This document shows positions 6,564 to 14,352 of a stretch of DNA of 16,086 nt, in pieces. The notes under the pieces were generated by a model. That model ran no database searches, had not been told where the DNA came from, and worked only from the letters and a program-made list of their open reading frames with translations. Every line of letters starts with the position of its first letter. The stretch's first letter is position 1. This stretch comes from a bacterium. Lineage in GTDB: Bacteria > Thermosulfidibacterota > Thermosulfidibacteria > Thermosulfidibacterales > JALWSI01. Location: contig JALWSI010000171.1 of assembly GCA_027080315.1 (NCBI GenBank), positions 1 to 16,086 on the forward strand. Reading direction: 5' to 3'. A program made the position numbers and the translations under genes.

Positions 6564-7000
<437 letters not shown>

Positions 7001-10388: not shown

Positions 10389-10399
10389 GGATCACCCTT
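10373..10399. terminator. Hairpin at convergent gene ends, candidate bidirectional terminator
   Basis: AAGGGTGAT (10373-10381) and its exact complement ATCACCCTT (10391-10399) form a perfect 9-bp stem with a 9-base loop. The TAA of the assembly ATPase lies in the loop and the TGA of the convergent HD-domain gene lies in the right arm. A run of only three T follows on the plus strand and two on the minus strand, so it is not a textbook intrinsic terminator. Its symmetry and position still argue for transcription end control or 3' end protection in both directions. Confidence 0.5.
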
Positions 10400-11330
10400 T
10401 GTAGATGTATCTCTCAAACCAACGATGGTAAGCGGTCCAGTTGCCCTCGGTGTTATCCTTCTGAATAAAGACATCAAACCCCGAAAGCTTTGAATCCATC
10501 TCGTCAAGAAAGTGGATAAGCACTGCCTCTTTGAACATGGGTCTCTGGGCGGCTCCCACCTCAGGCTCACCGTGGTGGCTCGCCACAATGTGTTGAATCT
10601 TCAACGAAAGCTCAGGGGGAAAGCCCTCAATCTCGCCAATGAGCCTGGCAAGAATCTGCCCCCCCAGCATGACGTGTCCCATCAGCCTTCCCTGGTCTGT
10701 GTACTCAGGCTGGCTCTCCTTCCAGAATATCTCCTCAACCTTGCCTATGTCGTGAAGGAGGCCCCCGGCAATGAGGAGATCCTTGTTTAGGTCAGGATAC
10801 ACCTTGCACCAGAGCAAATAGGCTCCCTTAGCTATGGCCAAAGAGTGTTCAAGAAGCCCCCCCACGTAGGGGTGATGGATCTTGATGCCTCCAGGAGCAG
10901 AGCAGTAGGCCTCTCTCAACTCAGGGTCATTCCACACCTTCATAAGAAGGGTTTTGAGGTACTCATTCTCCACCTGCTCAACAAGAGAGAGCCACTCCTT
11001 CTCCATGGTCTCAAGGTTCCTGGGAGACCTGGGCATCAGCGCCTTAATCTCCTCTGGAGAGGCGTGGCTCATCACCTCAACAACCACCTGAACATTGCCC
11101 TTCCAGGAGGTGGCCCTTCCCTCAATCTTCACAACATCGCCCTTCTGGAAGCTGGAGTTGAGCTCCTCCACATTCTCCCAAGCCTTGGCCTCCACCTCTC
11201 CCGTATCGTCTGCAAGACCCAAAGCAAGGTAGTTCTCGTCAACGTTGGTCTTCTTCTGTTTAAGGTCCTTGTACGAAAGGCGGTAAACCCCCTCCACCCG
11301 GGCTCCAGGGGTTATCTCTTTAACCTTCAT
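10392..11330 (-). CDS. OB-fold/HD-domain phosphohydrolase, YhaM-like 3'-5' exoribonuclease
   Basis: 312-residue protein with the two-domain build of YhaM. An N-terminal OB-fold (about residues 1-90, with GDVVKIEGRATSWKGNVQ) is followed by a metal-dependent HD domain (about 140-300). Visible metal ligands are His162 in LLEHS, His193-Asp194 in LLHDIGK, His219, His252-His253 in SHHGE and Asp276. YhaM relatives trim RNA or single-stranded DNA from the 3' end; other HD proteins act on nucleotides, so the substrate is family inference. The ATG at 11330 lies inside the end of the LutBA gene with an 11-base overlap, and GAGGAG sits a few bases upstream. Placement as last gene of an organic-acid oxidation operon is unusual and may be only transcriptional convenience. 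Confidence 0.8.
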   Translation of the reverse strand: MKVKEITPGARVEGVYRLSYKDLKQKKTNVDENYLALGLADDTGEVEAKAWENVEELNSSFQKGDVVKIEGRATSWKGNVQVVVEVMSHASPEEIKALMPRSPRNLETMEKEWLSLVEQVENEYLKTLLMKVWNDPELREAYCSAPGGIKIHHPYVGGLLEHSLAIAKGAYLLWCKVYPDLNKDLLIAGGLLHDIGKVEEIFWKESQPEYTDQGRLMGHVMLGGQILARLIGEIEGFPPELSLKIQHIVASHHGEPEVGAAQRPMFKEAVLIHFLDEMDSKLSGFDVFIQKDNTEGNWTAYHRWFERYIYKG

Positions 11331-13404
11331 GGCTCCTCAAGGCCTTAAGTAGGAAGGAGGCAAGGTGCTCAACCTTAATGTCCAAACCCGCCTCTTTAAC
11401 CCCTTGGGTCAGCTGCATGATGCAGCTGGGGCATGAGGTTAAGAGGCACTCTGCCCCGCTATTTTCAAGCCACTCCATCTTTCTTCTCAAGATCTCCTTT
11501 GAGACAGGGGGATGGGTGAACCTGTAGAGGCCAGCACCACCACAGCAGAGAGACTCCTCGTCGCCTCTCACCAGCTGCACCCCTTCAACCCTCTCAAGCA
11601 AAGCGTAAGGCTCCTCTTTGACCCCTGCATGGCGACCCAGATGGCAGGGCAGATGGTAGGCAACTGTGGCATTTAGGGAACCAAAGGACTTCTCAGGAAA
11701 CCTTTTCAAGAGAAACTGGGAGAGATCAAGGGCTTTGATCTTTCTGCTACTTGCTCCTTTAAGCAGCCCAGAGAGACAGGTGGCGCACAAGAAGAGAAGG
11801 GGCTTTCTACTATCAACCCTCTCAAGGTTCTTCGCCTCAAGCACCCTGCCCTTCAGGGTCTCACCCATCACCTCATGGGGATGACCGCAGCACTCCTCCT
11901 TAATTATCTGAACAGTCACTCCAAGCAGCCTGAGAAGCTCCACCGCATCCTCAGCAATCTGGGGATAGAGATACTCAATCATGCAGCCTGCATAGAGGGT
12001 GACATCTCCCCCTTGTGTGGTGATTCCATGCTCTTTGGCCCAAGCATGAAAGGGCTTTAAGGGAGGATCGGGTAGCACAGCCTTGCCGGCAAGCTCCCCT
12101 AAGGCACCTGGCAGCTCCGGCATCTGTTTCACGGGCATCATGCCCATAACCAGGGATAGCGACTGAAGACGCTCCCGTTTCTCCAAGGCCTTCAGGGCCT
12201 CTCTTCTAATCTTGGTTGCAACCTTCTCCCTCTCTCTAACCACCTCAACCAACTTGGGAATATCTATGCCCACGGGACACACCTCAAGACAGGTTCCACA
12301 GGTGGTGCAGAGGTCGGCGACATCCTTTGCCGCCTCGTATCCCGCAGTTATGGCTGTCCACGCGGCCCCTATGCCTCCCATGTAGATGTGGCTAAAACGC
12401 TGTCCACCTACAGACTGGTAAACGGGGCACACGTTCATGCAGGCCCCGCAGCGTATGCATCTTAGGGTCTCCTTAAGCTGGGGATCCTCAAGGGCCTTCT
12501 TGCGACCGTTGTCCACAACCACAAGGTGAAGCTGGCGACCCTCTTTCCACTTGAAGGGGGCAGAAAATACGCTCACGTAGCTGGAAGAGGTGAGCCCCAC
12601 TGAGTTTCTCGGGAGAATGTCAAGAAGAAAGAGGCCATCTGCCAGGGTCTCCACCACCTTCTCGTAACCTGTGATGATCACCTGCAGGGGGGGCAGGGTG
12701 GCGCAAAGCCTGCCGTTTCCCTCGTTGGTCATGAGCATGAAGAGAGCCCTGTCTGCGGCTATGGCGTTGATCCCCGTTATCCCCATGTGTGCGGTGAGAA
12801 ACTTCTGGCGTATCTCTTTACGCACCTCCTTGGTGATGAGGAAGGGATCTCTGGGCACCTCACGTCCCCAGTGGCGCTCAAAGATCTGGGCAACCTCCTC
12901 AACGGTGCGATGCACCGCAGGCACTATGAGATGAGAGGGCGGTTCTCCTGCAAGCTGAATAATCCTTTCTCCAAGATCGGTTTCAACAACCTCTATCCCC
13001 TCCTCCTGAAGGGCCGGGTTAAGTTCAATCTCTTCGCTGGTGATGGACTTCCCCTTAACAACGAGGTCCACCTTTGCCTCTTCGGCTATCCCTTTGATGA
13101 TGTTACGGGCCTCTTCTGCAGTGGCTGCATGGTGAATAATCCCCCCCCTGGCGGTGAACTGCGCCTCAATAGAGGCCCAAAGCTCTTCTGCCTTGGCCAA
13201 GGCCCTCTCTTTTATCTCTCTGCCTCTCTCCTGAACCTTGGCGAAATCACCCACCCCTCTAAGTGCCTCTTCCCTCCTTGTAGCGAATCTGCTCGTGGCA
13301 TTGGTTAGAGCCTCTCTAAGGTTGGGATCCTCAACCTTCTCCCTCAGGGAGTCCCATCTCTCCACTGGGAGCCCCAACAATCTCCACACTTCCCGCAGAT
13401 CCAT
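11320..13404 (-). CDS. LutB-LutA fusion: LUD/iron-sulfur/CCG-domain oxidoreductase
   Basis: 694-residue protein combining two subunits that are separate in Bacillus LutABC (L-lactate oxidation). Residues about 60-300 are a LUD domain with TSEEIELN, VVETDLGERIIQLAGE and TNEGNGR. Two 4Fe-4S motifs follow: Cys316/319/322/326 and Cys366/369/372/376. Two CCG domains come last, with Cys474, CCG at 505-507 and CATC at 540-543, then Cys587, CCGG at 620-623 and CPSC at 658-661. This matches LutB plus LutA/GlpC-like electron-transfer modules. The usual IAETG motif after GITG is replaced by IAADR (215-219). ATG 13404 is preferred over GTG 13431 because it follows the lutC stop by 2 bases with GGTGGTGA upstream. 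Lactate is the likely but unproven substrate class; location is probably cytoplasmic or membrane-peripheral. Confidence 0.85.
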   Translation of the reverse strand: MDLREVWRLLGLPVERWDSLREKVEDPNLREALTNATSRFATRREEALRGVGDFAKVQERGREIKERALAKAEELWASIEAQFTARGGIIHHAATAEEARNIIKGIAEEAKVDLVVKGKSITSEEIELNPALQEEGIEVVETDLGERIIQLAGEPPSHLIVPAVHRTVEEVAQIFERHWGREVPRDPFLITKEVRKEIRQKFLTAHMGITGINAIAADRALFMLMTNEGNGRLCATLPPLQVIITGYEKVVETLADGLFLLDILPRNSVGLTSSSYVSVFSAPFKWKEGRQLHLVVVDNGRKKALEDPQLKETLRCIRCGACMNVCPVYQSVGGQRFSHIYMGGIGAAWTAITAGYEAAKDVADLCTTCGTCLEVCPVGIDIPKLVEVVREREKVATKIRREALKALEKRERLQSLSLVMGMMPVKQMPELPGALGELAGKAVLPDPPLKPFHAWAKEHGITTQGGDVTLYAGCMIEYLYPQIAEDAVELLRLLGVTVQIIKEECCGHPHEVMGETLKGRVLEAKNLERVDSRKPLLFLCATCLSGLLKGASSRKIKALDLSQFLLKRFPEKSFGSLNATVAYHLPCHLGRHAGVKEEPYALLERVEGVQLVRGDEESLCCGGAGLYRFTHPPVSKEILRRKMEWLENSGAECLLTSCPSCIMQLTQGVKEAGLDIKVEHLASFLLKALRSHEG

Positions 13405-13406
13405 GC

Positions 13407-13955
13407 TCAAATCACCACCGCGTAAACCCACTGGGGACCATGCACCCCGCTAACGTGAATAAGCTCAATGTCCCCGGTCTTGCTGGGGCCATTCACCACA
13501 GAGAGGTAGGCAGGAGGATCATCTCCAACCACCGCCTCCATGGCCTCTTCCAAAGAGGGATAGATTGCGTTCTCTCTCACAACCACAAGATGAATAGGGG
13601 GAAGAGAGGTGAGAAGATGGGTCTCCTTATCCCTCCAGGCAAAGAGCAGGCTTCCTGTCTTTCCAACAGCTGCCGATACACCTGTCACCCCAAGATCCAC
13701 CTTAGAGGCATCCTCCTCAAAGCTGACCCCTGCCTCGGAAAGGGCAGAGGAGATCTCTTCAAAAAGTGGAAGGCCCTGCTCTAAAGCCGCTGTTTTGACT
13801 TTTAGCTCTTCAACCATGGACTTCAAGAGCTGTTGCAAAGGACGCCTTTTGGTGGGGCGCAAAGGGGTTCCCCCCACCTCTTCAAACCTGGTGAGAAACA
13901 GCCTTGCCGAGGCGCCCCTTCTACGACGCGAGCCTCCACCCTCAGAGGATGGCAT
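13407..13955 (-). CDS. lutC: LutC-type LUD domain protein
   Basis: 182-residue LUD-domain protein of the LutC family, the third component of the LutABC lactate oxidation complex. Family landmarks are LTRFEEVGG near residue 21, GVTGVSAAV at 89-97, GPSKTGDIELIHVSGVHGP at 156-174 and the LPPIHLVVV strand. The normally conserved IAETG(T/S) reads VGKTGS (97-102), with Lys99 where Glu is expected. The ATG at 13955 has GAGGGGTGAGG immediately upstream and gives a 14-base overlap with the PII-like gene. A GTG two codons earlier is possible. The N-terminus is rich in Arg and Ser (SRRRR), unlike most LutC. Gene order lutC then fused lutBA supports joint function; divergence of the motif leaves the substrate open. 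Confidence 0.85.
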   Translation of the reverse strand: MPSSEGGGSRRRRGASARLFLTRFEEVGGTPLRPTKRRPLQQLLKSMVEELKVKTAALEQGLPLFEEISSALSEAGVSFEEDASKVDLGVTGVSAAVGKTGSLLFAWRDKETHLLTSLPPIHLVVVRENAIYPSLEEAMEAVVGDDPPAYLSVVNGPSKTGDIELIHVSGVHGPQWVYAVVI

Positions 13956-14283
13956 CCTCACCCCTCTCGTTGGTACGAACCCTCATGGCATCTTCAACGG
14001 GGAGAACAAAGACCTTTCCATCTCCAGGGGTCTCTGTGTTGCACACCTGGTGCAGCACATCCAGCACCTTGGCGAGCATCCCATCCTCCACCACGGTTTC
14101 AAGCCTCATCTTGGGGAAAAACTTGGGAATACCCCCCCCCTCACCGGGCTGCCCCATGCGGGCAAGGGACTTTCCTATTCCCATAACCTGCCCCACGCTG
14201 ATTCCAGGGGCCCCAAGTTCGTAAAGGGCCTTCTTCACCTCCCAGAGTTTGTCAGGATTTATGAACGCAACCACCATCTTCAT
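13942..14283 (-). CDS. Divergent PII-like signal protein lacking Tyr51
   Basis: 113-residue PII homologue that aligns without gaps to GlnB. Nucleotide-binding residues are retained: Gly37, Lys58, Gly87, Gly89, Lys90, Arg101 and Arg103 in the TPGDGKVFVLPVE and RVRTNERG segments. The T-loop differs completely: position 39 is Ser (normally Gln, a Mg2+/2-oxoglutarate contact), position 51 is Gly (normally the modified Tyr), and a GQPGEGGG stretch at 44-51 replaces GHTELYRGAE. It should bind ATP/ADP, but uridylylation at Tyr51 is impossible and 2-oxoglutarate binding is probably altered. It heads the lutC-lutBA-yhaM operon and overlaps lutC by 14 bases, suggesting control of organic-acid oxidation and not of ammonium assimilation. 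ATG 14283 has AAGGGGGA about 8 bases upstream; a second ATG lies two codons later. No known PII-like subfamily is assigned with confidence. Confidence 0.88.
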   Translation of the reverse strand: MKMVVAFINPDKLWEVKKALYELGAPGISVGQVMGIGKSLARMGQPGEGGGIPKFFPKMRLETVVEDGMLAKVLDVLHQVCNTETPGDGKVFVLPVEDAMRVRTNERGEDAIL

Positions 14284-14315
14284 AGCCTGTCCCCCTTTTC
14301 TATCCTCGTATGGGC

Positions 14316-14343
14316 ACTACACGGTTCACCTTTGAAGTGTCAA
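14316..14343 (-). promoter_or_regulatory. Candidate promoter of the PII-like/lut operon
   Basis: On the minus strand a perfect -35 box TTGACA (14343-14338) is followed by a 16-base spacer and TGTAGT (14321-14316, 4 of 6 matches to TATAAT). The start would lie roughly 25 bases before the ATG at 14283. The -35 box is one arm of the palindrome at 14337-14352. Confidence 0.5.
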
Positions 14344-14352
14344 GGTTGACAC
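14337..14352. promoter_or_regulatory. Palindrome GTGTCAAGGTTGACAC, shared -35 boxes or operator
   Basis: Perfect 7-bp arms GTGTCAA and TTGACAC are separated by GG at the centre of the divergent region between the PII-like gene and rplI. Each arm contains TTGACA reading outward on one strand, so the two promoters have back-to-back consensus -35 boxes two bases apart. The element could be an operator for a dimeric regulator, or could simply let polymerase choose one direction at a time. Confidence 0.55.

Follow-up and report, generated by a model that had tools for sequence, protein, structure and literature searches.

The P-II family protein of 113 residues encoded on the minus strand at 14283-13942 of the stretch of DNA analysed here (16,086 nucleotides, hereafter the window) belongs to a separate PII class, which is present in four phylum-level lineages of those sampled, has lost the Gln39 ligand of canonical PII and carries T-loops that change with the neighbouring gene. 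PII proteins are textbook integrators of 2-oxoglutarate (2-OG) and energy state. For the window protein, we consider it evenly balanced whether it is an ATP/ADP (energy charge) sensor blind to 2-OG, which would tune LUD/LdhH lactate oxidation by means of a partner-matched T-loop.

The window protein and its class

The window PII matches the Pfam P-II family (PF00543) over residues 1-106 with an E-value of 8e-21 and 74.7 bits, against a gathering cut-off of 25. It aligns without gaps over 112 residues with the canonical GlnK of the same window (44 % identity), as the original prediction had claimed for GlnB, and the codon listing gives every residue that was named there: S39, K58, G87, G89, K90, R101 and R103, with D88 between the two glycines, and G44 Q45 P46 G47 E48 G49 G50 G51 along positions 44-51. 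The open frame is not a product of chance, since single-copy orthologues at 54-66 % identity are found in seven of the eight other genomes of the phylum (the gene thus being present in 8/9, the window's included). The plus-strand frame of 13942..14283 is not a PII. The plus strand also has a 246-residue open frame at 13609-14349, opposite the genes for PII and LUD_C, which seems to be incidental to the richness of the coding sequence in G+C. Neither a promoter nor a terminator was found in the scan upstream of the PII gene, and Rfam and tRNA scans gave no matches.

AlphaFold2, using a 29-sequence alignment, predicts the PII ferredoxin-like fold for this protein (pLDDT 89.8), with the lowest confidence around the T-loop, where the block mean for residues 41-50 is 61. 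Foldseek relates the model to many PII structures at TM 0.8-0.9, the best fold matches being Synechococcus elongatus PII 2xul/2xzw (2-OG complexes) at about 0.85-0.9.

A profile built from the orthologues was searched against 386 sampled genomes and identified five further genomes above the canonical matches, at 108-137 bits (G350, G211, G300, G341 and G013), all of which read GIGKP at positions 35-39. Scores with the subsequent class profile are bimodal, with 131-197 bits for the class and at most 114 for other PIIs; a sequence interrupted by an internal stop, probably a fragment of a class member, scores 108, and the window PII scores 171 with this profile, which includes it. The class, referred to here as GIGKP, was defined by GIGK[PS][LM] at positions 35-40, P26-G27, S29, retention of G89-K90-R101-R103 and a class-profile score above 130 bits, and the window protein, which reads GIGKS and combines S39 and N9 with the lack of Tyr51, falls within it. 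Members occur in 45 of the 77 genomes of the G300 phylum (44 above 150 bits and one partial at 132), in 4/24 of the G211 phylum and in 1/3 of the G350 phylum. Although a second survey of 385 genomes, largely the same set, detected no further lineage with the class profile, the surveys sample one to three genomes per family and the class may therefore occur beyond the four lineages found. A named scan for relatives of the window PII returned LUD-linked orthologues only, in MAGs labelled Aquificota, Thermodesulfobacteriota, Deferribacteres or simply 'bacterium'.

A tree was built from 28 sequences of the class and 60 PIIs from outside it, NifI-like proteins among the latter; in it all 28 class sequences are monophyletic with 100/99 support, and this is unchanged without the T-loop columns. 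The class forms one side of that branch, which places the window PII outside the GlnB/GlnK grouping, and the LUD-linked sequences form a subclade of their own, again at 100/99. Two sequences that had been considered as members (L009 and L029) were rejected, as both retain Gln39 and the class branch does not include them. The suggestion that the protein might represent a separate PII class thus holds among these 88 PIIs, with Gln39 lost throughout the class; homologues scattered among ordinary GlnK proteins with random neighbours, which would have spoken against it, were not what was found, given the well-supported clade and a LUD neighbour in each assessable genome of the phylum.

That the class is a known PII-like subfamily (PotN, PII-NG, NifI, SbtB or CPII) under another name appears very unlikely. 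PotN of Firmicutes offers a precedent, being described as an energy-state-sensing PII subfamily (Iskhakova et al. 2022, as cited in PMC9692440); however, when solved chains were scored with the class profile, none reached the level of class members, and the PotN chain 7o4x, at 71.6 bits, ranks even below the canonical chains, which mostly score 84-113. NifI-like sequences (L140, L144 and L145) fall far outside the class in both the tree and the profile scores, and the neighbouring genes differ. Comparison of sequences thus supports an old, separate PII class without earlier annotation, set apart from PotN by profile score, for which the NCBIfam/Pfam naming (nitrogen regulator only) is probably misleading.

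Ligand residues and the T-loop

Position 39 is Pro in 27 of the 28 class sequences and Ser in the remaining one, that of the window, as against Gln in 59 of the 60 other PIIs. In the ATP-Mg-2-OG complex of Archaeoglobus GlnK3, the Mg2+ holding 2-OG has no protein ligand other than Gln39, which becomes a switch residue bonded to Lys58 when ADP is present instead (PMC3198391). Lys58 is itself needed for 2-OG binding, which is lost in the PII variants K58N and K58M (PMC6908673). Lys occupies this position in 60/60 non-class PIIs and 7/7 LUD-linked rows, and Arg, Cys, Gly or other residues replace it in 20 of the 21 other class rows. Since Gln39 is lost and Lys58 is mostly lost outside the LUD-linked group, the canonical MgATP-2-OG site would not be expected to form as known in this class. 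Lys9, present in 51 of the 60 non-class PIIs, is Asn in the window PII and invariantly so in the LUD-linked group (7/7), a replacement that the original prediction had not named. In the P-II family the nucleotide sites lie between the subunits of a trimer. The residues G35, G37, D88, G89, K90, R101 and R103 are kept in 28/28 class sequences, and binding of ATP/ADP by the class is likely as judged from these residues.

The window PII, with Lys58 kept and Ser39, might still bind 2-OG weakly via other ligands. A related but rather improbable explanation is that the site has been rebuilt to sense 2-OG or a different 2-oxo/2-hydroxy acid (pyruvate or lactate, for instance), with Mg2+ held without Gln39 and the metabolite being consumed or produced by the pathway encoded alongside. 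The retention of Lys58, a 2-OG carboxylate binder in canonical PII, in the LUD-linked rows and its loss elsewhere in the class would agree with this, as would neighbours that act on oxo/hydroxy or amino/keto acids (PLPBP review PMC9605639). However, the only protein ligand of Mg2+ has been replaced by Pro, whose side chain is unable to coordinate the ion, and Lys9 is lost as well in the LUD-linked group.

Tyr51 is the T-loop site of uridylylation/adenylylation in GlnB/GlnK. The corresponding column holds Tyr in 1/28 class sequences versus 52/60 others, the window PII having Gly. GlnD-type enzymes are encoded in 8/9 genomes of the phylum, including the window's host, and each genome has one to three canonical PIIs beside the class paralogue; the paralogue thus stands beside the canonical nitrogen circuit and outside it, and the loss of Tyr51 is meaningful.

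The T-loop region comprises residues 35-58 (GIGKSLARMGQPGEGGGIPKFFPK; 14110..14181, minus strand), as delimited from the orthologue alignment, codon listing and T-loop identities. The original prediction regarded its glycine-rich stretch as a rebuilt loop. The letters are correct and the loop is unlike that of GlnB/GlnK, but the stretch is no feature of the class: it is absent from 7/7 orthologues, whose loops, of the type GIGKPLARMADMMERHGAIPKFFPK, have one residue more. According to the codon listing, E48-G49-G50-G51 lie over a run of nine C on the plus strand at 14132..14140 (nine G on the coding strand); no other G/C homopolymer in the window is as long. With the other loop in all seven orthologues and this run beneath it, GQPGEGGG, seen in the window genome only among the orthologues compared, is a private variant, and the glycine-rich loop was rejected as a class hallmark. 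What is conserved in the LUD-linked group is Pro39 (Ser in the window), Asn9, the lack of Tyr51 and a PKFFPK strand. Slippage at the nine-G run, at the tip of the T-loop, would frameshift the PII gene or alter the length of the loop.

The private, homopolymer-coded stretch also raises the question of whether this is an ordinary GlnB/GlnK whose T-loop is degenerate or mis-assembled in one MAG. We hold this to be extremely improbable, as the reading frame is intact on both sides of the run, seven orthologues exist in other genomes, Pro39 marks the class in four phylum-level lineages and monophyly does not depend on the T-loop columns; for the class as a whole these findings refute it.

Gene partners within and beyond the phylum

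In the window's phylum the PII gene is followed on the same strand by a gene for a short LutC-like LUD protein, LUD_C, in 8/8 genomes. In the window this gene occupies 13407..13961 on the minus strand, starting at 13961 (GTG) or 13955 (ATG) and overlapping the PII stop codon, so that about 14-20 bases are shared; the overlap is shorter in the orthologues, with 4 bases in five of them and a single base in the other two. LUD_C matches PF02589 with 79.9 bits and retains the GPSKTGDIEL...GVHGP motif; Deinococcus radiodurans LutC (2g40) is its top match by profile as well as by predicted fold, and its fold also matches the LutB chain 9a6l_B. Overlapping LUD_C in turn is an LdhH-like LutB-LutA fusion with LUD, 4Fe-4S and CCG domains (11320..13431, minus strand), identified from domain matches and synteny and found after LUD_C in 7/8 genomes; the exception is G001, where PII and LUD_C remain paired and the LdhH gene is located on a different contig. 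The ninth genome, G007, was rejected as a counter-example, since the contig stops within LUD_C (base 11918 of 11918) and the absence of PII is not informative. The last gene of the run (10392..11330, minus strand) encodes a protein with HD and OB-fold domains resembling YhaM. Four further genomes of the phylum share this synteny, so that the gene follows the operon in five (35-42 % identity); its product is related to the exoribonuclease YhaM, with a weaker relationship to the Cas3 HD domain.

The LdhH-like protein scores 595 bits, below the NCBIfam LdhH cut-off of 800, and its substrate is therefore uncertain. Lactate oxidation is plausible, considering that FAD-oxidase_C dehydrogenases are encoded in 9/9 genomes of the phylum and a lactate permease in 5/9, the window's included. 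Among the matches listed in the 386-genome survey, a different PII gene lies some 6 kb or less from a LUD domain in only two genomes, both of one family, without being adjacent to it; within that scope canonical PII genes do not generally adjoin LUD genes. The canonical GlnK of the window (6564-6953, minus strand) belongs to a run glnK-rpiB-glyA-dCMP deaminase-nrdR-trkH-corC-like-(agmatinase), which recurs in G003 and G007 and has no amtB next to it. A literature search on PII with LutC or lactate utilisation, on PII-NG and on Nitrospina PII found nothing relevant, and the LUD domain paper (PMC3924224) does not mention a PII gene.

Whether a clade of such proteins would always lie beside LUD genes, as had been proposed, depends on the phylum: it holds without exception in that of the window, and was rejected beyond it. 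The class PII is nearly always directly upstream of one co-directional gene, which is fixed per phylum across several families. In the G300 phylum this is yggS followed by proC at 30/30 distinct loci (one short contig ends before proC), often with the class PII behind a gene for a SprT-like protein (L063, L095-L124); in the G211 phylum it is lplA, which begins a few to ~70 bases downstream at 4/4 loci (L086, L088, L127 and L128); in G350 there is no obvious partner gene. The G300 arrangement, with the class PII before yggS (PLPBP) and proC, constitutes a PII-PLPBP gene link without PipX.

The T-loops follow the neighbours. Their identity within groups is 0.63 (LUD), 0.56 (YggS) and 0.36 (LplA, where the loop is weakly conserved), compared with 0.18-0.30 between these groups, for which the core shows 0.46-0.53. 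The LUD group has a core identity of 0.68; against the other groups its T-loop identity is 0.18-0.21, with core values of 0.46-0.49 for the LplA and YggS groups. Canonical T-loops share 0.72 identity with one another, and the three main groups resemble them at only 7-13 % (0.07 for the LUD group), so the claim that the window's T-loop departs from that of GlnB/GlnK is well borne out. The pattern fits partner-specific T-loops across three lineages in which phylogeny and partner are not fully separable.

The class PII could alternatively be a general regulator whose target lies elsewhere, its position being inherited with the operon and kept by drift in each phylum. The change of partner gene between phyla (LUD, yggS-proC, lplA and none obvious in G350) means that the target may not be encoded beside the class PII. 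We nevertheless regard this explanation as unlikely, because adjacency is fixed over several families per phylum, reading frames overlap in the LUD group, the T-loop changes with the neighbour and the PII-LUD_C pair survives rearrangement in G001. Co-location of PII and LUD_C can also reflect co-expression without contact.

Proposed role and comparison with known systems

The proposed energy-charge sensor would operate as follows. With the PII fold and adenine-nucleotide site kept, and both the Mg2+/2-OG ligand and the modification site lost, the protein would sense ATP versus ADP and not 2-OG, and the bound nucleotide would determine the conformation of a T-loop suited to a single partner. 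The most likely candidate in the window's phylum is LUD_C, the LutC-like protein whose gene is translationally coupled to that of the PII, and on which the T-loop would dock; through LUD_C, the LdhH-like iron-sulphur subunit would be gated and the oxidation of lactate, or of a related 2-hydroxy acid, tuned to energy state. What the sequences show directly is the class, its lost residues, the order of the genes and the pattern of T-loops; the sensed ligand, the partner and the direction of control, be it activation or inhibition, are inferred, as are the altered 2-OG response and new target surface put forward in the original prediction. More tentatively, and with confidence short of even, the class of at least four phyla without 2-OG sensing may be an exchangeable energy-charge module placed before a different enzyme in each lineage (LutC/LdhH, YggS+ProC or LplA), the T-loop having re-evolved for the partner. 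If true, a clade that keeps the nucleotide site and drops the 2-OG ligand would represent a natural separation of two PII functions, and its fixed gene partners would provide a short list of candidate new PII targets; among these would be a connection of a PII to the LUD proteins of lactate oxidation and, separate from the PipX network, one between PII and PLPBP genes.

The class shares with GlnB/GlnK the fold, the length and the nucleotide residues of the B- and C-loops (G87-K90, R101 and R103), but differs in the replacement of Gln39 by Pro/Ser, the loss of Lys9 and Tyr51, an unrelated T-loop, its separate clade and its neighbours, which are LUD, yggS or lplA genes instead of amtB/glnA. NifI1 and NifI2 are PII paralogues that serve a single enzyme complex encoded alongside them and have long T-loop insertions. 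Their traits (T-loop insertion, tandem nifI, nif operon) are absent here, the window PII being single copy, 113 residues long and in a LUD operon. PotN (Lentilactobacillus, 7o4x) has the PII fold in common with the class and ranks 24 in the fold search, but is a Firmicutes protein linked to a polyamine transporter and is distinct by its class-profile score, given above. The cyanobacterial PII-PipX-PipY network is reminiscent of the class in that PipY is a PLPBP (YggS) and the class precedes yggS-proC in one phylum, pipY being located near proC in cyanobacteria (PMC9605639); however, PipX is described as confined to cyanobacteria (PMC7344720), and the class is without Gln39. Finally, the window operon resembles the LutABC/LldEFG and LdhH systems in its LUD, 4Fe-4S and CCG domains and in the LutC fold of LUD_C, but is distinguished from them by the fusion of LutB with LutA, a short LUD_C (about 150-185 residues) and a PII gene in front.
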